A stretch of 64,000 bases of DNA from Desulfosudis oleivorans Hxd3. Lineage in GTDB: Bacteria > Desulfobacterota > Desulfobacteria > Desulfobacterales > Desulfosudaceae. Positions within the stretch are counted from its first letter, which is position 1. Every line of letters begins with the position of its first letter. The notes under the pieces were generated by a model. That model did no database searches. It was not told the origin of the DNA and saw only the letters and a list, made by a program, of their open reading frames with translations. Positions 7,291 through 17,314 of the stretch are shown here, one piece after another. The stretch lies in the NCBI RefSeq assembly GCF_000018405.1, contig NC_009943.1, positions 3,723,001 through 3,787,000 on the forward strand. Reading direction: 5' to 3'. Position numbers and translations under genes: made by a program.

Positions 7291-8692
7291 TGGAATAGCG
7301 GGAATAAGCCCGGTCCAGGACAATCATCAACCCCACAAACAGCAGCGGCCAGGCGATGACCCCGGCCATGGGTGGCAGGCCGAACATCATGGTCAGGAGA
7401 TTATTCGGGTTGAACCGGCCGGCGGTAAATTCCGGAACAATGATTGAAAAAAACGGATTGGAAACAGCCGGGTCGGCCAGAAAGGCCACTGTGGATTTGG
7501 CCATCCAGCTCATTCCCACCCCGGCGGCGGCAATGCTGTAGAACCACAGCAGCGGCTGCTTTGTCCGGGACACCCACACCACCCCTTCATAAATCAGCAG
7601 AACGGCAACGGGAATCAGGTGCCGGGGGCCATAGGCGTAGCCGCCGTCCCACATGTAGTAGGAAGAAAACAGCAGCACAAAACAGACTGAAAACCAGGCG
7701 GTGTAGTCAAGAGCCACCGTCCCGAGTTGCTTTTCCTTCCGCCACAGGAACACAACCAGGACCACCGCGAGAAAAGGCGCAAAAAACAACAGCCCCCGGT
7801 AGGGAGAGACCAGCAGGTGCCAGAGCGCCTCCGGTTGAGGCAGGCCAAAACCCAGGTTTTGCCGCATGGGGGCAAACCCCTCGTGGCTCACATGGCTGTA
7901 AGGCATGGAAAAAGGACTGCCGGTGATGATAAAGACATAAAAACTGTTTGCCAGCAGGCCCGGTAAAAACCCGCCCACAAAGGCCGCTGCCTTTTTTACG
8001 CTCTTTTCCCGGACAACAATCAGGACCGCCCACAGGGGAAGGGCAAGGCCCACCGGGTATTCGGCCAGAAAGGCGGCCCCCAGCAGCAGGCCGGCATAAA
8101 AATGGGGCCGTCCCCGCTTTAGCAGTATGCAGGACAGCAGCAGCAACAGGGCTGCCAGCAGGTGGCCAAAAAAGGCGCCGGCATAGACAAACACAAAAGA
8201 ACCGTAAAAAGGCAGGCAGACCAGCCACACGGGAGAGACTGAGGGGTTTACGCGCCTCACCATCCAGGCGGCGGCCGTCAGAATGAGTACAAACGGCAGG
8301 GAGCCGCACATCAGGCTGCCGGTCGCATAGGCCCAGAACCCTGGAAACACGAACGTGTCATTATAAACGGGCCGGTGGCCTTGGGTATAGGCCCGGGAAT
8401 AGGCCGGATAACGGTCCGGCCCCAGATGCTCAAGCCCGGAAAGCCTTGCCATCCCGTAAAACGGCAGCGTGATAAAGGTGGAAAGCGGGGCCTTGTCCGA
8501 ATAGTAATGGCCGTTGATCCGGCTTTTATCAAGGGTGTACTTCTCGTAGCGGTCAATCTTCAGGGTGCCCTGCTCAAAAAGGGTGATCATGGGAATGGCA
8601 CGGGACCCCGGATTGTGTGTAAGCCAGGTGTCAATGAAAAAGGCGGACAGCCCAAGATTTGCCACGATAAAAAGCGCAAAAAACTTTTTCAC
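7283..8692 (-). CDS. GT-C type integral membrane glycosyltransferase-like protein
   Basis: 469 residues and about ten to eleven hydrophobic segments. After the first membrane segment comes a loop with DRYEKYTLDKSRINGHYYSDKAPLSTF, where the early acidic residues and SDKAP motif are typical of an uncharacterised GT-C/ArnT-like group. Another conserved loop is YMWDGGYAYGPRHLIP, close to the end of many bacterial GT-C proteins. It overlaps the upstream PMT-like gene by four bases and so belongs to the leftward run beginning with the polyprenyl-phosphate mannosyltransferase. It probably moves a sugar from a lipid carrier on the periplasmic side; donor and acceptor cannot be read from sequence. Confidence 0.7.
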   Translation of the reverse strand: MKKFFALFIVANLGLSAFFIDTWLTHNPGSRAIPMITLFEQGTLKIDRYEKYTLDKSRINGHYYSDKAPLSTFITLPFYGMARLSGLEHLGPDRYPAYSRAYTQGHRPVYNDTFVFPGFWAYATGSLMCGSLPFVLILTAAAWMVRRVNPSVSPVWLVCLPFYGSFVFVYAGAFFGHLLAALLLLLSCILLKRGRPHFYAGLLLGAAFLAEYPVGLALPLWAVLIVVREKSVKKAAAFVGGFLPGLLANSFYVFIITGSPFSMPYSHVSHEGFAPMRQNLGFGLPQPEALWHLLVSPYRGLLFFAPFLAVVLVVFLWRKEKQLGTVALDYTAWFSVCFVLLFSSYYMWDGGYAYGPRHLIPVAVLLIYEGVVWVSRTKQPLLWFYSIAAAGVGMSWMAKSTVAFLADPAVSNPFFSIIVPEFTAGRFNPNNLLTMMFGLPPMAGVIAWPLLFVGLMIVLDRAYSRYSTK

Positions 8693-10521
8693 TGCATGGC
8701 CCCGTAAAAAGAGGAGACATACTCGAACACGGCATACTCCCGGTCGGCAAGGCCCCGGTCTATATCCCAGTAAAGCCGGAACAGCTTCATGCGCAGCTGC
8801 CGCTGACCGTAGTTGATGTCGAGCGACTTTTTATATGCATCAATAGCCTCATCCACCCGGCCCTGCCTCAGCAGCAGATCGCCCAGGGCCTCGTACTTCT
8901 GGGCCGCGGCCAGGGAGGTGTCCGGCACCTTGTCAATATAAACCGCCGCTTTTTCAAAATCGCCATGGTCCGCGTAGTAACCGGCCAGGGCCAGGTTGGC
9001 GAAGGCCGAATAAGGCTGGCAGAGCGCCGCTGACCGCTCCCAGAACACAAGAGCCTCGGCCTGCCGATCTTTGGATGCCAGGTTGGAGGCATGCACATTC
9101 AGGTAGGCGGTAAAATCCTTGTCGCCGGGCACGGGCACAAAGGCCAGAACAAAAAAGAAAGTGGCGGCAGCGATATAAGCCCCTGCTGTTTTAAACGAGC
9201 CCTGGCGCAGAGCGGACACCAGCCAGCCAAGGCCCAGAACCGCAAAAGGAATCAGCACCACCATCACGGGCAGGCGAATACGAACGTTGGAAAAGAAAAT
9301 GACCATGGTGGCGCCGTAGGCCAGGCAGACCAGGGCCGCCAGTGCCTTTTTGCGATCCGTAAACCCCAGCATCACCAGGCCGGCCATACCCAGGGGCAGG
9401 ACCAGCCCGATGGACAGAAGCGGCCATCTGAGAAATGAAATATAGTCCTTTAAAAAACCCAGGTGGTGATTGTCCGCCGACTCGTAACGGTTGAAGGCGG
9501 CCAGCACCTTGACCCCGATTTTCCGGGCAAAGGCGGCCGGGTTTTCCATTGCAAACCGCTTGACCTCCCCTGTCCAGTAGGCTGACGCCTCCCGGGGGGA
9601 GAGCTTTTCCCCCTGGCGGCGGCTGGCCTCGATCACAAACCCGATGGCCTGCTGCGTTGCATTGGATGTGGCAAACCGTACCGGCCGGTAATAAGGGAAA
9701 GGATTGTCCGGATTGTTTGCGATATAAAGGTTGAACCCGCCGGCAGGGGTGACGGCAAACGCGCCGGTCATCTTATAGTCCCGCACCACAAAGGGTAAGA
9801 CCGCCACGGCAAATCCCAGAACAAAGCCGGCCAGAACAGCCGGCCAGGTACGCACCGGCACCCGGTCCCGGAAGCACGCCCATGCCGCGCAGGCCAGGGC
9901 CACCGGCATCATGACAACGGCGTTGGACCGCACATTGATCAGCAGGGCCATGATCACACCGGTCAGAATCGCCCAGGCCCAGGTATGTCGAAGCGGTTTT
10001 TGTTTTTCTTCCGACACCGCGTCCATCAGCACCAGGCAGGCATACACAAAAGCGGAAAACAGAAAAACCGAGAGCGCGGTCTTGTGCAGCACCACGGAGA
10101 AAAAGACAAGGGGCGCATACAGGGCCGCAACCATGCCTGAGAAAAGGCCCACCCGGGCCCCGCCCATGCGTCGGCCGACCAGAACAATCATCATACAGGT
10201 CCCGGTGCCCAGGGCCATGTTCAGCAGACGGATATAAAACGGGTCCGGGGCAAACAGGGTATAAACCGCGGCCATGATATAGGCGGGAAGGGGCGCAAAA
10301 TCGGGCACGCTCAGGGTGCCGAACTCGCCGGAAGCCATTCGAACGGCCCAGGTGTGGTAAACCTGCTCGTCAAACAGCAGAAAATCGGCGTAAAGGCTTT
10401 TCTGAAAACTCAACAGCGCAAAAATTCGAACCGCCAGGGCCACAGCCCCGACCAGGCCGGCGGCCAGCCAGGGGCGATTCTTAAAAACCGTTTTCAACTG
10501 CATGGCGGTGGTTGCGTTCAT
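8689..10521 (-). CDS. PMT/ArnT-like glycosyltransferase with C-terminal TPR domain
   Basis: 610 residues. Residues about 15-470 are a GT-C membrane domain with roughly a dozen hydrophobic segments; the first loop has LLFDEQVYHTWAVRMASGEFG, where the DE pair fits the catalytic acidic position of the family. Residues about 470-600 are soluble and form TPR-like helix pairs (AAQKYEALGDLLLRQGRVDEAIDAYKKSLDINYG). It starts in an ATGA overlap with the upstream DPM1-like gene and ends in one with the next GT-C gene. The TPR tail may hold the enzyme to a protein partner or acceptor. Protein O-mannosylation is possible but unproven. Confidence 0.78.
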   Translation of the reverse strand: MNATTAMQLKTVFKNRPWLAAGLVGAVALAVRIFALLSFQKSLYADFLLFDEQVYHTWAVRMASGEFGTLSVPDFAPLPAYIMAAVYTLFAPDPFYIRLLNMALGTGTCMMIVLVGRRMGGARVGLFSGMVAALYAPLVFFSVVLHKTALSVFLFSAFVYACLVLMDAVSEEKQKPLRHTWAWAILTGVIMALLINVRSNAVVMMPVALACAAWACFRDRVPVRTWPAVLAGFVLGFAVAVLPFVVRDYKMTGAFAVTPAGGFNLYIANNPDNPFPYYRPVRFATSNATQQAIGFVIEASRRQGEKLSPREASAYWTGEVKRFAMENPAAFARKIGVKVLAAFNRYESADNHHLGFLKDYISFLRWPLLSIGLVLPLGMAGLVMLGFTDRKKALAALVCLAYGATMVIFFSNVRIRLPVMVVLIPFAVLGLGWLVSALRQGSFKTAGAYIAAATFFFVLAFVPVPGDKDFTAYLNVHASNLASKDRQAEALVFWERSAALCQPYSAFANLALAGYYADHGDFEKAAVYIDKVPDTSLAAAQKYEALGDLLLRQGRVDEAIDAYKKSLDINYGQRQLRMKLFRLYWDIDRGLADREYAVFEYVSSFYGAMQ

Positions 10522-11252
10522 CGGCCCGACATCCTCAGTTTGGCAACTACCTTATACGTGGCGATCAGTTCCGAAAAATTAAACTTTGATTTTTCCCGTT
10601 GCCGGGGGGCGAACGCAATGGGAATCTCCACCACGGTCCGGGCAAGAGCAAGGGTTTTATACAGCAGATCCACCTTGTAGGCAAACCGGTCTAAAGCCAT
10701 CAGGCCGCTTAAGTCGATCCGGTCCAGAACCCCGGCCACCCGGGTCAGCCGAAACCCGGTGGTCAGGTCGTGAATCGCGTCAAGCCCCAGCATGCGCCGG
10801 GCAAACCGGTTGCCTGCCACGCTGATAAACTTCCGGTGCCAGGCCCACTGGTCCGGAATGGCGCCGCCGGCCATAAAACGCGAACCGATCACGTAGTCGG
10901 CGCCTTTTTCAAAGGCCGTTGCCATGTCGATCAGGTAACGCGGATCGTGCTGAAAGTCGGCGTCCATCTCCACCACGGCATCAGCGGAAAGCTGGTCCAT
11001 GGCAAAAGAAAAACCTCTTACATACGCATGGCCGAGCCCTCTTCTTTCGCCGGTTGAAAGATGAAGCCGTTCATGAACCGTCATCCGATCCGTCACAATC
11101 CGGCCGGTGCCGTCCGGAGAGGTGTCGTCGGCCACCACCAGGTGCATATCGAAGCCGTCCATCGCCGGAAATATCGTTTCGAACAGGACGTCGATCATTT
11201 TCCCGATATTGGCCGCCTCGTTGTAGGTGGGCATGACTACCGCGATCCGCAT
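10518..11252 (-). CDS. Polyprenyl-phosphate mannose synthase-like GT2 (DPM1 type)
   Basis: 244 residues. A GT2 fold: VVMPTYNEAANIG at the N-terminus, VVADDTSPDGTG for nucleotide binding, VVEMDADFQHDP with the metal-binding DAD, then GSRFMAGGAIPDQWAWHRKFIS, which is characteristic of dolichol/polyprenol-phosphate mannosyltransferases. There is no C-terminal membrane segment, as in soluble bacterial forms. The ATG at 11252 is preferred because ACAGG lies before it. It would make the lipid-linked sugar donor for the two GT-C proteins that follow in the same overlapping run, and perhaps for the PIG-V-like protein at 5583-6812. Confidence 0.85.
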   Translation of the reverse strand: MRIAVVMPTYNEAANIGKMIDVLFETIFPAMDGFDMHLVVADDTSPDGTGRIVTDRMTVHERLHLSTGERRGLGHAYVRGFSFAMDQLSADAVVEMDADFQHDPRYLIDMATAFEKGADYVIGSRFMAGGAIPDQWAWHRKFISVAGNRFARRMLGLDAIHDLTTGFRLTRVAGVLDRIDLSGLMALDRFAYKVDLLYKTLALARTVVEIPIAFAPRQREKSKFNFSELIATYKVVAKLRMSGR

Positions 11253-11328
11253 ATGCACCTGTCGTGTTCAGAAAAATTCTGTTCCAGGCCGATATAGCCG
11301 ATATATGAAGTCGGCCGGTTGGTTCTGT

Positions 11329-12282
11329 TTACTCTCCGGGGGCGGAAGCCGGCTGCTCCAGTATGTTCAGCAGGTCCTGATAAAGGGGATTATTCGGAAA
11401 AAGGCCCACCGCCTTGACCGCGTTGGCCAGGGCCTTTTCCCGGTTTCCGGTCAGCTGATACACCCGGGCACGGTTATAATAAGCGGTATGGTAGCTGGGA
11501 TAAAATTCGATGGCCTTGTCCAGATCGGCCAGTGCCCCGGTGTAGTCACCAGCCTGGGCGCGGACCGATCCCCGGCCGCTTAAGGCCTCGGCCATGCGGG
11601 GAAAAATCGAAAGGGCCTTGTCATAGGCGGCCATGGCCCGGTCCGGCTGCCCCTTCTCCATCCATGCCGAAGCCAGGTTGTTATACGCCCAGGCAAACCC
11701 CGGATTTTCGGCAAGAGCCGCGGTAAAGTCGGCAATGGCCTTATCTGGATCTCCCTTTTCCAGCCAGGTCACGCCCCTGGCGTTGTAAAACTCGGCGGCC
11801 CGGTCCGGCCGCATCTGAATGGCCCGGGAGTGGTCGGCCAGGGCGCCGATAAAATCACCTGTTTTTCGTAAGGCCACGCCCCGATTGTTGTAGGCATCGG
11901 CAAAATCCGGGGCCAGCTCAACGGCCCTGTCCAGGTCGGCCAGGGCCTTATCCATCTGGCCCATGTCGCAAAAAGCCTTGCCTCTTCCGTTATAGGACTC
12001 GGGAAAATCAGGATTAATGGCCAGTGCCCGGTTGTAGTCTGCAACGGCGCCTTCATAATCGCCCAGATCCCAGCGGGCCGCGGCCCGGTTGTTGTAAGCC
12101 GGAGCAAAGTCGGGCGAAAGGTCCAGTACTCGGGTAAAGGCTTCCACCGCCTTGTCGTACTGTCCGGCCTGTACACTGGCCATGCCCGCGTCAAACCACC
12201 CCTGAACGCTCCTGTCTCTGCTGTCGTCACAGCCCACGGCAACCGCGGCCAGCATTATACCAAGGACAAAAATTTTTCTCAT
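11329..12282 (-). CDS. TPR repeat lipoprotein
   Basis: 317 residues. The N-terminus MRKIFVLGIMLAAVAVGC ends in a lipobox-like cysteine at position 18, so it is probably a membrane-anchored lipoprotein. The rest is about eight tetratricopeptide repeats of 34 residues, for example YDKAVEAFTRVLDLSPDFAP and MDKALADLDRAVELAPDFAD. TPR arrays mediate protein contacts. It lies 76 bases upstream of the glycosyltransferase run in the same direction and could be cotranscribed; a scaffold role for that machinery is inference. Confidence 0.85.
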   Translation of the reverse strand: MRKIFVLGIMLAAVAVGCDDSRDRSVQGWFDAGMASVQAGQYDKAVEAFTRVLDLSPDFAPAYNNRAAARWDLGDYEGAVADYNRALAINPDFPESYNGRGKAFCDMGQMDKALADLDRAVELAPDFADAYNNRGVALRKTGDFIGALADHSRAIQMRPDRAAEFYNARGVTWLEKGDPDKAIADFTAALAENPGFAWAYNNLASAWMEKGQPDRAMAAYDKALSIFPRMAEALSGRGSVRAQAGDYTGALADLDKAIEFYPSYHTAYYNRARVYQLTGNREKALANAVKAVGLFPNNPLYQDLLNILEQPASAPGE

Positions 12283-12584: not shown

Positions 12585-14219
12585 ATGACATCATTTGGGA
12601 AAATGGCTCGACTGGCGATGACAACCACCCTTTTTGCCCTGCTGGTGGTGGGCCAGAATGCAGTGGCCGGCGTTGTGGCTGAAGGCAGCGCCACCCTGGA
12701 GAGCCTTCACACCGACGGCACCCAGGGCAACGATTACAGCGACATGACCTCAATTTCAGCCGACGGCCGGTTTATCGCCTTTGAATCGTCCGCCACCACC
12801 CTGGTGGACACCACGACCTACGCCGAATATAACATTCTGCTGCGGGACACGGCAGAAGGCGTCACTACCCTGATAAGTGTTACCCCTGCCGGCTATGGAG
12901 CAAACAACAGTTCCCGAAACCCCGCTATCAGCGGGGACGGCCGGTATGTAGCTTTTGACTCCCAGGCCACCAACCTGACAGGTCAAGTCACAGGGGACTA
13001 CCAGATATTTATGCGCGACACCGTTGCCGGCACCACCCAACTGATCAGCCCCAACTATGGAGGCGTTGATACCGGTGCTCCCTATGGCTATGGCGGAGGC
13101 GGACGAAGCGGACGCCCGTCTGTCAGCTTTGACGGCCGGTATGTGGCCTTCTATTCTGATGCCGCCAACCTGACGGCCGACAGCGACACTTTCGGCAGTC
13201 AGGATGTGTTTATCCGGGACACCCAGACCGGCACCACCACCCGAATTATGGCCTATGGCGGAGCACAGCCTGACGCCGGCGTGACCTCCCCGGCCATCTC
13301 CGGGGATGGTTTGGCAGTGGCCTTTCAGTCTGACGCCACCAACCTGCTGGCAGCCGACAACCCGGATGGATCATATGTTAATATTTTTGTTTACGACACC
13401 GCCTCCGGCGTCATCGAGATGATCAGCCGGGCCTATGGCAGCGCCATGGCCGAATTTGATGACCCCACCTATGGCGCGAACGGTACTTGCAGACGCCCCT
13501 CCATCAGCTACGGGGGCCGGTACGTGGCCTTTGAGTCATATGCCACTAACCTGGTCGACGGCGGCAGCACCGGAAATCAGGTGTTCGTATACGACCGGAC
13601 CACCGGTGACATGGTGATCGCCAGCGCTGTTGACGGCGGCACCGCCTGGGGCAACAGCACCAGCGAAACCCCAGCCATCTCCTCCGACGGCCGGTATGTG
13701 GCATTCAGATCTACTGCATCAAATCTTGTCGATTTTGAAAACGCCGGCGTTGCCGGCGCCTATCTGCGGGATACCGTGGAAAACAAGACCACCCTGATGT
13801 CCAGAAGAGACAACATTGTGGCCGGGTATGACGCTGACGCCGTCTACGGCGCAGCCATGACCTACTGGCCGGCGGTCAGCGCCGGCGGCATGTATGTGAC
13901 CTTTGGCTCCGACGAAGACACCCTTGTGGCCGGGGATGAAAACAGCGAAAGGGATATATTTCGCGTTCTCTATGATACCGACGGTGACGGCATCGCCGAT
14001 TCGGACAGCGATGGCGATGGTACGCCGGACTGCACGGATCTCTGCCCGGATGATCCGAACAAGATCGATCCCGGGGCCTGCGGGTGCGGTGTTGCCGACA
14101 CCGACGCCGACGGCAACGGCATTGCCGACTGCCTGGAAGACGACGAGCCCGAGCCGGCGCCACGTCTGCCTGACACCGACATCGGCCCGGATTGTTTCAT
14201 CTCGACGCTTGTTTTTTAA
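12585..14219 (+). CDS. Secreted TolB-like beta-propeller protein with thrombospondin type 3 repeats (copy 1)
   Basis: 544 residues. A signal peptide of about 28 residues is followed by a propeller made of PD40-like units: each has S-x-DGR-[FY]-[IV]-AF-x-S-x-A-x-NLV, then a [IV]-[FL]-x-RD-T strand, seven or eight times from about residues 40 to 450. The C-terminal 85 residues are calcium-binding thrombospondin type 3 repeats (DTDGDGIADSDSDGDGTPD, CPDDPNKIDPGACGCG). The protein ends in GPDCFISTLVF, reminiscent of the CFIAT/CFIST start of a C-terminal anchoring tail seen in related bacteria but without the membrane segment. It is paralogous along its whole length to the next gene; a rho-independent terminator follows. 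Confidence 0.85.
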   Translation: MTSFGKMARLAMTTTLFALLVVGQNAVAGVVAEGSATLESLHTDGTQGNDYSDMTSISADGRFIAFESSATTLVDTTTYAEYNILLRDTAEGVTTLISVTPAGYGANNSSRNPAISGDGRYVAFDSQATNLTGQVTGDYQIFMRDTVAGTTQLISPNYGGVDTGAPYGYGGGGRSGRPSVSFDGRYVAFYSDAANLTADSDTFGSQDVFIRDTQTGTTTRIMAYGGAQPDAGVTSPAISGDGLAVAFQSDATNLLAADNPDGSYVNIFVYDTASGVIEMISRAYGSAMAEFDDPTYGANGTCRRPSISYGGRYVAFESYATNLVDGGSTGNQVFVYDRTTGDMVIASAVDGGTAWGNSTSETPAISSDGRYVAFRSTASNLVDFENAGVAGAYLRDTVENKTTLMSRRDNIVAGYDADAVYGAAMTYWPAVSAGGMYVTFGSDEDTLVAGDENSERDIFRVLYDTDGDGIADSDSDGDGTPDCTDLCPDDPNKIDPGACGCGVADTDADGNGIADCLEDDEPEPAPRLPDTDIGPDCFISTLVF

Positions 14220-14242
14220 AAAATACCTGCCCGACTGAATAC

Positions 14243-14273
14243 AAAGGCGGGGCTAAAAAGCCCCGCCTTTTTT
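14243..14273 (+). terminator. Rho-independent terminator after propeller copy 1
   Basis: AAAGGCGGGGC and GCCCCGCCTTT form an 11-bp stem around a short A-rich loop, followed by six T. A near-identical terminator follows copy 2 at 16253-16283. Confidence 0.9.
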
Positions 14274-14313
14274 GTCCTTTCTTCATCAGCCACCGGCGGT
14301 CCCCGGCACACCC

Positions 14314-14455
14314 TTATGCCTTCCCGCACATGCTTAATCGGAGCCGGCCAGCTCCACCATGCTTTTTGCGATCACCGCCAGCAGCGACACGATCTCACTC
14401 ACCTCAAACTGTATGTCCGCATCGGTGAGAAACACCATCTCCTTTTACGCAGCGG
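14314..14455 (-). pseudogene. Fragment of a duplicated GT2 glycosyltransferase gene
   Basis: This is the 3' part of the gene at 16324-17031 in shortened form. Bases 14314-14379 match 16324-16390, including the stop codon. The match then jumps to about 16709 and continues to about 16775. The two sides of the missing 318 bases in the intact gene carry the same nine bases, ATCACGGCC (16382-16390 and 16700-16708), so the deletion looks like a slip between short direct repeats. The fragment shows that the duplicated block once included the downstream glycosyltransferase. Confidence 0.8.
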
Positions 14456-14582
14456 TAACGTCTGTAAAAACAGCGGCCACTGAATGAAAAAGATTGCATT
14501 TGCCCCTCATCCCCCATAGTATCGACAAGCATTTTACAGGCATCTTTGGTTTTATCGTCATGTTTCAAGGAGTAACGCTATT

Positions 14583-16229
14583 ATGGGATCAAAAAAATCA
14601 ATTCGACTGGTACTGACTGCACTCCTTTTTGCGCTGCTGCTGTTCCCTGCGCAGAACGCCATGGCCGGGACGGTGGCCGAGGGCAGCGCCACCCTGGAAA
14701 GCCTTCACACCGACAGCACCCAGGGAGACGGTGACAGCTACAGGCCGTCGATTTCCGCGGATGGCCGGTATATCGCCTTTGAGTCCGAGGCATCCACCCT
14801 GGTGGATGGGGATATCAACGATTCTAAGGATATTTTTCTGCGGGACACCACTGAGGGTACCACCACGCTGGTGAGCGTGGCTGCCTCCTATGGCGCCCCC
14901 TACGGCTATGGCGCGGATCTTGGTTCCTCCAGCTCCGCCATCAGCGGCGACGGCCAGTATGTGGCCTTTGATTCTAACGCCACCAACCTGGTTGCCGGCG
15001 GCACTTACGGCCAGCAGGTGTTTGTCCGCGACACAGTTGGCGGCACAACAGCCCTGGTCAGTCCCAACTATGGCGGCACTTACGGAGCTCACGGCTATGG
15101 CGCCAACGGCAACAGTGCTTATCCGTCCATCAGCTTTGGAGGGCGGTATGTGGCCTTCCAATCCTATGCCACCAACCTGACCGACGACGGCGCCACGAGT
15201 TATAGCGCCATCTTTATCCGCGACACTCAGGAAGGCGCCACCACCCGGATCATGGCCTATGGCGGGGCACAACCCGACAACAATTCCTACTACCCGGCCA
15301 TCTCCGGAGACGGTTCGGCCGTGGGCTTTCAGTCCAGGGCCAGCAACCTGCTTGAAGCAAACAACCCTGATACGGGGGACCAAAACATCTATGTTTACGA
15401 CACCGCTTCCGGCGCCATTGAGCTGATCAGCCGGGCCTATGGAAGCGCCTTGTCTGAAGAGATCACTCCCACTTATGGGGCGAATGGCGGCTGCGACAAC
15501 CCGGTCATCAGCTACGGCGGCCGTTACGTGGCATTTTACTCCTATGCCACCAACCTGGTCTATGGCGGCAGTAACGGAGAGTATCAGGTTTATGTATATG
15601 ACCGGACCTCCGGTGAAATGGTGGTGGCCAGTGCCGAGGATGGAGGAACAAGTGAAGGAAATAACACATCAGATAGGCCCTCCATCTCGCCCGACGGCCG
15701 GTATGTGGCCTTTAGATCCCAAGCCACCAACCTTGTTACGGATGTAACTGAATATACCAGCTCCGACTATCTTGTCTTTCTGCGCGACACTGTGGATCAA
15801 AAAACGACACTCATCTCCAGGATAGACAATACCGTGGGCGGATACGAGGCCGGCGTATACGGCGGCGGCATCAACAATGCCCCTTCGGTCAGCGACTGCG
15901 GCATGTATGTGGCTTTTGGCGCAGCCGGCAGCTACTTTGTGGAGGGTGACACAAACGGGAACAGCGACATTTTCCGGGTACTCAACGATACCGACGGCGA
16001 CGGCATTGGTGATATGGATACCGACGGCGACGGCACGCCCGACTGCGTGGACCTCTGCCCGGATGATCCGGACAAGATCGAGCCCGGGGCCTGCGGGTGC
16101 GGTGTTGCCGACACCGACGCCGACGGCAACGGCATTGCCGACTGCCTGGAAGACGACGAGGAACCGGCGCCACGTCTGCCTGACACCGACATCGGCCCGG
16201 ATTGTTTCATCTCGACCCTTGTTTTTTAA
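14583..16229 (+). CDS. Secreted TolB-like beta-propeller protein with thrombospondin type 3 repeats (copy 2)
   Basis: 548 residues, with the same plan as copy 1: signal peptide (MGSKKSIRLVLTALLFALLL), repeated PD40-like propeller strands (ISADGRYIAFESEASTLVDG and similar), thrombospondin type 3 repeats with DTDGDGIGDMDTDGDGTPD and CPDDPDKIEPGACGCG, and an identical C-terminal GPDCFISTLVF. Codon-level identity is highest at the 3' end, while the propeller loops have diverged, so the loops may face different ligands. AAGGAG precedes the ATG. The protein is likely exported and stabilised by calcium. Its role is unknown; propellers of this type usually bind proteins or polysaccharides. Confidence 0.85.
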   Translation: MGSKKSIRLVLTALLFALLLFPAQNAMAGTVAEGSATLESLHTDSTQGDGDSYRPSISADGRYIAFESEASTLVDGDINDSKDIFLRDTTEGTTTLVSVAASYGAPYGYGADLGSSSSAISGDGQYVAFDSNATNLVAGGTYGQQVFVRDTVGGTTALVSPNYGGTYGAHGYGANGNSAYPSISFGGRYVAFQSYATNLTDDGATSYSAIFIRDTQEGATTRIMAYGGAQPDNNSYYPAISGDGSAVGFQSRASNLLEANNPDTGDQNIYVYDTASGAIELISRAYGSALSEEITPTYGANGGCDNPVISYGGRYVAFYSYATNLVYGGSNGEYQVYVYDRTSGEMVVASAEDGGTSEGNNTSDRPSISPDGRYVAFRSQATNLVTDVTEYTSSDYLVFLRDTVDQKTTLISRIDNTVGGYEAGVYGGGINNAPSVSDCGMYVAFGAAGSYFVEGDTNGNSDIFRVLNDTDGDGIGDMDTDGDGTPDCVDLCPDDPDKIEPGACGCGVADTDADGNGIADCLEDDEEPAPRLPDTDIGPDCFISTLVF

Positions 16230-16252
16230 AAAATCCCTGCTCGACTGAATAC

Positions 16253-16283
16253 AAAGGCGGGGCCAAAAAGCCCCGCCTTTTTT
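16253..16283 (+). terminator. Rho-independent terminator after propeller copy 2
   Basis: AAAGGCGGGGC pairs with GCCCCGCCTTT, followed by a T run. It is the sister of the terminator at 14243-14273 and lies in the same duplicated block. Confidence 0.9.
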
Positions 16284-16323
16284 GTCCTTTCTTCATCAGC
16301 CGGCGGCTGTCCCCGGCACGCCC

Positions 16324-17031
16324 TTATGCCTTCCTGCACATGCTTAATCGCAGCCGGACCAGTTCCACCATGCTTTTTGCGATCACGGCCGGGTTGGCGC
16401 CCGTGGGCGTACCGGCGGTTCTGGGCCGGTGGCCGTGCACCGGCACATTCACAACCGCAAACCCGGCCCGCCGGGCCCGAATCAAAAACTCGGCGCTGAA
16501 CATGGCGCCCTGGCTTTTGATGTCGTTTCTCAGGGCGTCAATCACGGCCTTACGCATCAGTTTGAAGGCGCAGTTGATGTCCCGGGCGCTTTTTCCAAAA
16601 AACAGGGTGACCAGCATGTGCCATCCCTGGGCATACAAACATCGAACAAAGGGATCCCGCCGGGGGTATCTGTAACCGGCGGCAATGTCGGCCCGGCCCA
16701 TCACGGCCAGCAGAACAATAATCTCACCCACGTCAAACTGCATGTCCGCGTCGGTGAGAAACACCAGTTCCTTTTGCGCGGCGGCAAAGCCCGTGAGCAT
16801 GGCGGCCCCGGACCCCCGGTTTTGTTCATGCCGAATCAGCTGAATACGGGAATTTTCGGCCGCCTGCTTTTGCACAATGGCCGCGGTCCGGTCACTGCTG
16901 CCGTCATCTACCACCAGAATCTCGTAGTCGAACCCGTTGGTGGTCATGACATTCACCACATGATCCAGCATGGGGCCGATCAGGGCCTCTTCGTTGTAAG
17001 CGGGAAGCACAATGGAAACAGACGGATTCAT
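16324..17031 (-). CDS. GT2 family glycosyltransferase (polyprenyl-phosphate type)
   Basis: About 235 residues. The fold is GT-A: SIVLPAYNEEALIGPML, EILVVDDGSSDRTA, LVFLTDADMQFDVGEI with the DAD metal site, and GYRYPRRDPFVRCLYAQGWHMLVTLFFG, as in DPM1/ArnC-like enzymes that load sugar onto a polyprenyl carrier. The start at MNPSVSIVLP (17031) is chosen on family similarity, since no clear ribosome-binding site is visible. It converges on propeller copy 2. A deleted copy lies at 14314-14455. The substrate is unknown. Confidence 0.82.
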   Translation of the reverse strand: MNPSVSIVLPAYNEEALIGPMLDHVVNVMTTNGFDYEILVVDDGSSDRTAAIVQKQAAENSRIQLIRHEQNRGSGAAMLTGFAAAQKELVFLTDADMQFDVGEIIVLLAVMGRADIAAGYRYPRRDPFVRCLYAQGWHMLVTLFFGKSARDINCAFKLMRKAVIDALRNDIKSQGAMFSAEFLIRARRAGFAVVNVPVHGHRPRTAGTPTGANPAVIAKSMVELVRLRLSMCRKA

Positions 17032-17314
17032 GAGGTAAGTGTATGCCACAATCCCCGGGTTCTCACAACAGAAAAGGGCCTGCAGATACAACCGTCCCGT
17101 TTATGGATTTCTGGTTGACGCGCCCGACCCGGCCCGCACAAACGGTCTGCGGATTTAAAAAACACACAGAAGAAAAACCGCTTTTCTCTGAAAATTTACA
17201 TGTTGCATGAAAAACATTTAACTTGACAGAACAACACCATAAGTGCAAAGTACAACTTACCACTTTTCATAAAGCACTCTTTCAATCATCCTTTACGCAG
17301 AAACAGGGGGCGAC

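Follow-up and report, generated by a model that had tools for sequence, protein, structure and literature searches.

A tandem duplication of a propeller gene and a glycosyltransferase gene with divergence of two ages in Desulfosudis oleivorans Hxd3

How did a pair of secreted propeller genes in Desulfosudis oleivorans Hxd3 come to enclose a broken piece of the glycosyltransferase (GT) gene that follows them, and in what order did the events behind this arrangement occur? The locus lies in a window of 64,000 nucleotides (positions 3,723,001-3,787,000) of the host genome, a single contig of 3,944,167 bases, and all positions below are those of the window unless stated otherwise (Table 1). The original prediction read the locus as a block duplication followed by a deletion in one of the two GT copies. 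Our comparative analyses agreed with these two steps, but the copies proved to be of two ages, such that a later homogenisation step is needed and the predicted history is incomplete. This two-age structure of the propeller-GT duplication is the new result of the present study.

Table 1. Positions of the genes, remnants and repeat-associated features of the duplicated locus
Feature	Position	Strand	Remarks
Propeller gene A	12585..14219	+	544 aa
Putatively homogenised 3' block	14040..14379		Comprises the end of gene A, its terminator and the 3' end of the GT; 95% identical to 16053-16390
Intrinsic terminator stem, gene A	14243..14270	+	
3' portion of the GT remnant, up to the deletion junction	14314..14379	-	1-nt deletion
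Deletion junction, ATCACCGCC	14371..14379		Counterpart of ATCACGGCC at 16382 and 16700
GT remnant past the junction	14380..14483	-	76% identical; one stop; spans the FLTDADMQFD segment
Propeller gene B	14583..16229	+	548 aa; paralogue of A
Partner of the putatively homogenised block, right copy	16053..16390		
Intrinsic terminator stem, gene B	16253..16280	+	
Intact glycosyltransferase family 2 gene	16324..17091	-	255 aa; convergent with propeller gene B

The two propeller genes are adjacent and in tandem on the same strand, and their products share 68% amino acid identity. The N-terminus of A has a hydrophobic segment that would fit a signal peptide, and both proteins comprise seven PD40 blades, TSP3-like acidic repeats and nearly identical C-termini of a CFI-like type, each gene being followed by a strong intrinsic terminator. 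In a BLAST self-comparison, a first collinear block aligned 12608-14379 with 14603-16390 (74% nucleotide identity over approximately 1,800 columns, E = 0), and a second aligned 14371-14483 with 16700-16812 (113 nt, 77% identical), the right copy jumping 318 nt before it. The predicted repetition of the propeller genes, their terminators and the 3' end of the GT gene was thereby confirmed, including the expected match at 14314-14455. The internal loss was also as predicted: the right copy carries ATCACGGCC at 16382, 16541 and 16700, and the left copy joins the first of these to the third, through a junction repeat that has one mismatch to ATCACGGCC. As the 318 bases lost between the repeats correspond to 106 codons, this deletion by itself left the reading frame intact.

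The intact GT was well above the gathering cut-off of Pfam PF00535 (104.5 bits against 23.3; 7e-30), and since no equivalog cut-off was reached in the profile search, the assignment is made at the level of family 2. In the left remnant, the single-nucleotide deletion before the junction causes a frameshift, while past the junction the frame is maintained to approximately 14483 except for one TAA (complement of 14445-14447). Taken alone, 14456-14582 did not match the GT above the level of shuffled sequences (56 of 200 shuffles scored as high); the remnant was extended to approximately 14483 because 14456-14483 keeps both frame and register with the preceding part. Thus, the predicted loss of the upstream part of the left GT stands, with its boundary moved from about 14455 to about 14483. 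When the whole genome was searched with the remnant, the neighbouring GT was the only significant match (E 3e-18), the next being 17 nt long with an E value of 0.2.

Blade by blade, A1 to A7 were each closest to their own partners in B (57-74%), and in the reverse comparison B6 was about equally similar to A1 (58%) and A6 (57%). Together with the single good match of the remnant, this pairing supports duplication of the block as a unit. A and B were 77% identical within blade cores, compared with 59% in the intervening stretches, in agreement with the prediction that the loops differ between the copies. The upstream regions of A and B have nothing in common except the ribosome-binding-like AAGGAGTAA, and the duplicated unit was therefore traced leftwards no further than the gene starts. 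Neither the propeller nor the tail block nor the GT fragment has a further copy elsewhere in the genome. To the left of the propellers, 8689-12282 encodes, entirely on the minus strand, a membrane glycosyltransferase with a TPR tail, a second family 2 glycosyltransferase and a TPR protein.

Strikingly different levels of divergence were observed along the duplicated unit. A changepoint was located at 14040, with nucleotide identity of 69% before and 95% after it (log-likelihood gain 61.8, compared with gains of at most 6.75 in 300 permutations, which ignore codon structure). Synonymous divergence, which had been suggested as a check, was likewise not uniform. Codon by codon, the propeller bodies showed a dS of about 0.92 and a dN of 0.28, with 0.53 synonymous differences per site (0.48-0.59), whereas in the last 48 codons only 2 of 35 synonymous sites differed (0.057, 0-0.15; dS 0.06; binomial p = 3e-9) and no amino acid was changed. 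The longest run identical between the copies spans 78 nt (14070-14147). Across the non-coding 3' region and the tail of the dead GT, identity was 93% (152/163) as far as the deletion junction and fell to 76% (79/104) beyond it (Fisher p = 8e-5). The last 48 codons, the terminator and the GT 3' end are all about 5% divergent, between sharp edges at approximately 14040 and at the junction. The homology, its boundaries and these levels of divergence are established directly from the alignments. As neither the spacer nor the tail of the dead GT needs conserving, the identity of the block is unexplained by constraint, and recent homogenisation accounts for it.

Past the junction, the GT fragment resembles the older part of the duplication: its synonymous divergence of 0.40 is in line with the value for the propeller bodies, given its broad interval (0.21-0.62). 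Mismatches between the remnant and the intact GT in this 104-nt segment fall at 9, 3 and 13 of the 35, 35 and 34 sites at codon positions 1, 2 and 3, a modest signal of coding constraint (position 2 against position 3, p = 0.004), and many of the replacements are conservative (L/M, M/I, D/E and I/V). Taken together, the mismatch pattern and the synonymous divergence suggest that the left GT arose in the same duplication as the propeller, kept its coding function over a large part of its later history and decayed late; as the sample comprises 34 codons, the long coding life is moderately supported.

These observations can be combined into a history that we regard as probable overall, its order and direction being drawn from internal comparison of one genome. 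In the ancestral cassette, a gene for a secreted PD40 propeller of seven blades and a family 2 GT gene would have faced each other across a common terminator, and an ancient tandem duplication would have copied this unit. The two propellers presumably remained functional, with most of their divergence falling in the loops that separate the blade cores, while the left GT, after a long coding period, would have lost its 5' part and, via the 9-bp repeat, 318 in-frame bases. Later, the two cassettes would have been homogenised at their 3' ends over approximately 340 bp by non-reciprocal homologous recombination (i.e., gene conversion), in a tract that begins where the propeller body ends, crosses the TSP3 and C-terminal tag region and the terminator, and enters the GT tail, stopping exactly at the deletion, where homology breaks off. 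Transfer was probably from right to left, which is the simpler direction given a whole GT on the right and a broken one on the left.

Gene conversion is suggested as the agent by a tract of neutral identity far above that of its flanks and with sharp ends. Local similarity above the age of the paralogues, with such edges, is also known from gene conversion and concerted evolution of prokaryotic paralogues (PMC6053082); the present case differs in that one short tract in a tandem pair is concerned rather than lasting homogenisation of whole genes. Each of the processes invoked is ordinary in bacterial genome evolution. The uneven divergence along the pair probably exposes separate events, namely duplication, late gene death and conversion halted by a deletion, and it carries a warning that the conserved 3' end is unfit for dating such duplications.

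The deletion may have either existed already and stopped the tract, or been made by the copying event itself through re-annealing at the wrong ATCACGGCC. In the second version, which refines the history above rather than excluding it, deletion and homogenisation would be one event: the copying tract would have left its template at the ATCACGGCC at 16382 and found a new annealing site, out of register, in the left GT at its third repeat, omitting 318 bases. The end of the tract and the deletion junction do coincide at the same 9-bp repeat, but an earlier 318-nt deletion would stop a tract at the same point, so that the coincidence does not discriminate; we hold the one-event version to be possible, though tentative.

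A mosaic left copy could also have arisen through unequal crossing over while a larger tandem array grew and shrank, with no gene conversion. Tandem repeats of 2 kb at 74% identity are able to recombine, and a hybrid would likewise show a sharp boundary at 14040. Crossing over nevertheless predicts a whole right GT behind the left propeller, and not approximately 75 bp of it followed by old divergent sequence unless extra deletions are added, which makes this explanation unlikely. Still less probable is a single duplication whose 3' block merely seems younger owing to strong purifying selection on the C-terminal tag and the terminator. Among relatives, no C-terminal feature is better conserved than the CFI tag, and the terminator stem is functional; selection on both could explain part of the identity of the tail. 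This reading is at odds with the nearly identical synonymous sites of the tail, with the high identity of a dead GT tail and spacer that need no constraint, and with the end of the identity at the deletion junction; the non-coding and synonymous identity has already largely refuted it. Finally, insertion of some other GT gene between the propellers, for which only the 76% identity past the junction would speak, can practically be dismissed, being contradicted by the sole significant genome match, which is the neighbouring GT, and by the collinear continuation of the fragment from the propeller 3' end.

No single-copy propeller-GT relative was found in three genomes of the family, and neither in these nor in samples of 389 genomes from the class and order was a close propeller found together with a close GT. 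Relatives of the propeller (at most 53% identity) and of the GT (38-42%) occurred in separate genomes of the 389-genome samples, and no propeller adjoins any of the three GT relatives. The family, class and order samples also contained no outgroup near enough to show non-reciprocal transfer. A scan of genome contigs gave one distant match in Paenibacillus, and a scan of viral contigs gave none. A conserved operon of the GT with the glycosyltransferases at 8.7-11.3 kb was considered, given a similar gene order in genome G257, and was dropped, as the membrane glycosyltransferase of the window has no match in that genome.

Both propellers exceeded the gathering cut-off of the PD40 profile PF07676 (47.6 and 38.9 bits for A and B, cut-off 20.9), and they resemble PD40 and TolB-like WD40 propellers in seven blade motifs of the form S-I-S-x-D-G-R-Y-V-A-F. 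Identity with TolB itself was rejected (TIGR02800, 25.8 and 21.4 bits against an equivalog cut-off of 343), and A and B differ from TolB-like propellers by their TSP3-like repeats and CFI tail. An AlphaFold model of B, built on a shallow alignment of 4 sequences and unreliable at residues 470-548, shows a sevenfold repeat of the blade unit (pTM 0.71; mean pLDDT 66.5, with higher values inside the blades), and its matches to propeller folds with Z above 22 point to a predicted multi-bladed propeller. The best solved match was the C-terminal propeller of CylK, a Friedel-Crafts alkylating enzyme (PDB 7FH6/7ROO; Z 31.6, 2.5-2.6 A, 347 residues), likewise seven-bladed and 12% identical, and the next family followed at Z 25.6. 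The active site of CylK needs an N-terminal Ca2+ beta-roll that supplies the catalytic Arg105 (PMC8916777). This domain is absent from A and B, which have approximately 30-40 residues before the first propeller strand; CylK was thus ruled out as a functional analogue, the fold alone being in common and no alkylating activity implied. PDB sequence searches gave no significant match, and the viral fold matches were set aside as generic propellers. Extracellular or surface binding is the likely role of the propellers.

Loops of the DxNGxxD type occur in 5-7 blades of propellers from other genomes of the order, compared with 1 in A and 2 in B, most such loops having been lost from the pair. The inter-blade inserts of A and B are rich in Gly and Tyr, with 12 and 16 YG/GY dipeptides, respectively, against 0-4 in relatives.

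The C-terminus common to A and B, DIGPDCFISTLVF, has the tail GPDCFISTLVF, and relatives end in GGGGCFIRAIF and NCFISTIMGRSLDER. Like the CFI-box putative sorting motif (NF041763, curated cut-off 15.9 bits), these tails have a C-terminal Cys-Phe-Ile followed by a few residues, but A and B lack the glycine run. Neither A and B nor their tail gave a match to NF041763, for which reason surface sorting is proposed only conditionally and the CFI-like tag is regarded as a putative sorting signal; one relative (G025) reached 12.2 bits, and the same genome as A and B encodes other proteins above the cut-off. We consider it highly improbable that the tag and terminator form an exchangeable 3' module, in which recombination would hold the tag regions of surface propeller paralogues identical as the propeller faces diversify, the GT being a bystander, and that A and B are a subgroup in which Gly/Tyr-rich loops have taken the place of the calcium loops of the blades. 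A wider mechanistic consequence would follow only if such exchange of tag modules proves recurrent.

Other CFI-type tails were observed outside the window. At G000:C1:2598454, a minimal C-terminal tail, GGGGGGCFIEAVR-stop, has four residues after CFI and hence no transmembrane segment after the motif, in which it differs from MYXO-CTERM and GlyGly-CTERM; another minimal tail, beginning GGSGGGCFIGTLCW, lies at G000:C1:2726056. In addition, a cluster of repeated secreted-looking genes (G000:C1:2106000-2117500) encodes products with acidic linkers and then CFI/CFV-type tails, such as DDDDTCFIDSAAG, DDDTCFIQTAS and DDDTCFVQAAR, among which two CFI tails and the CFV tail are above the NF041763 cut-off.
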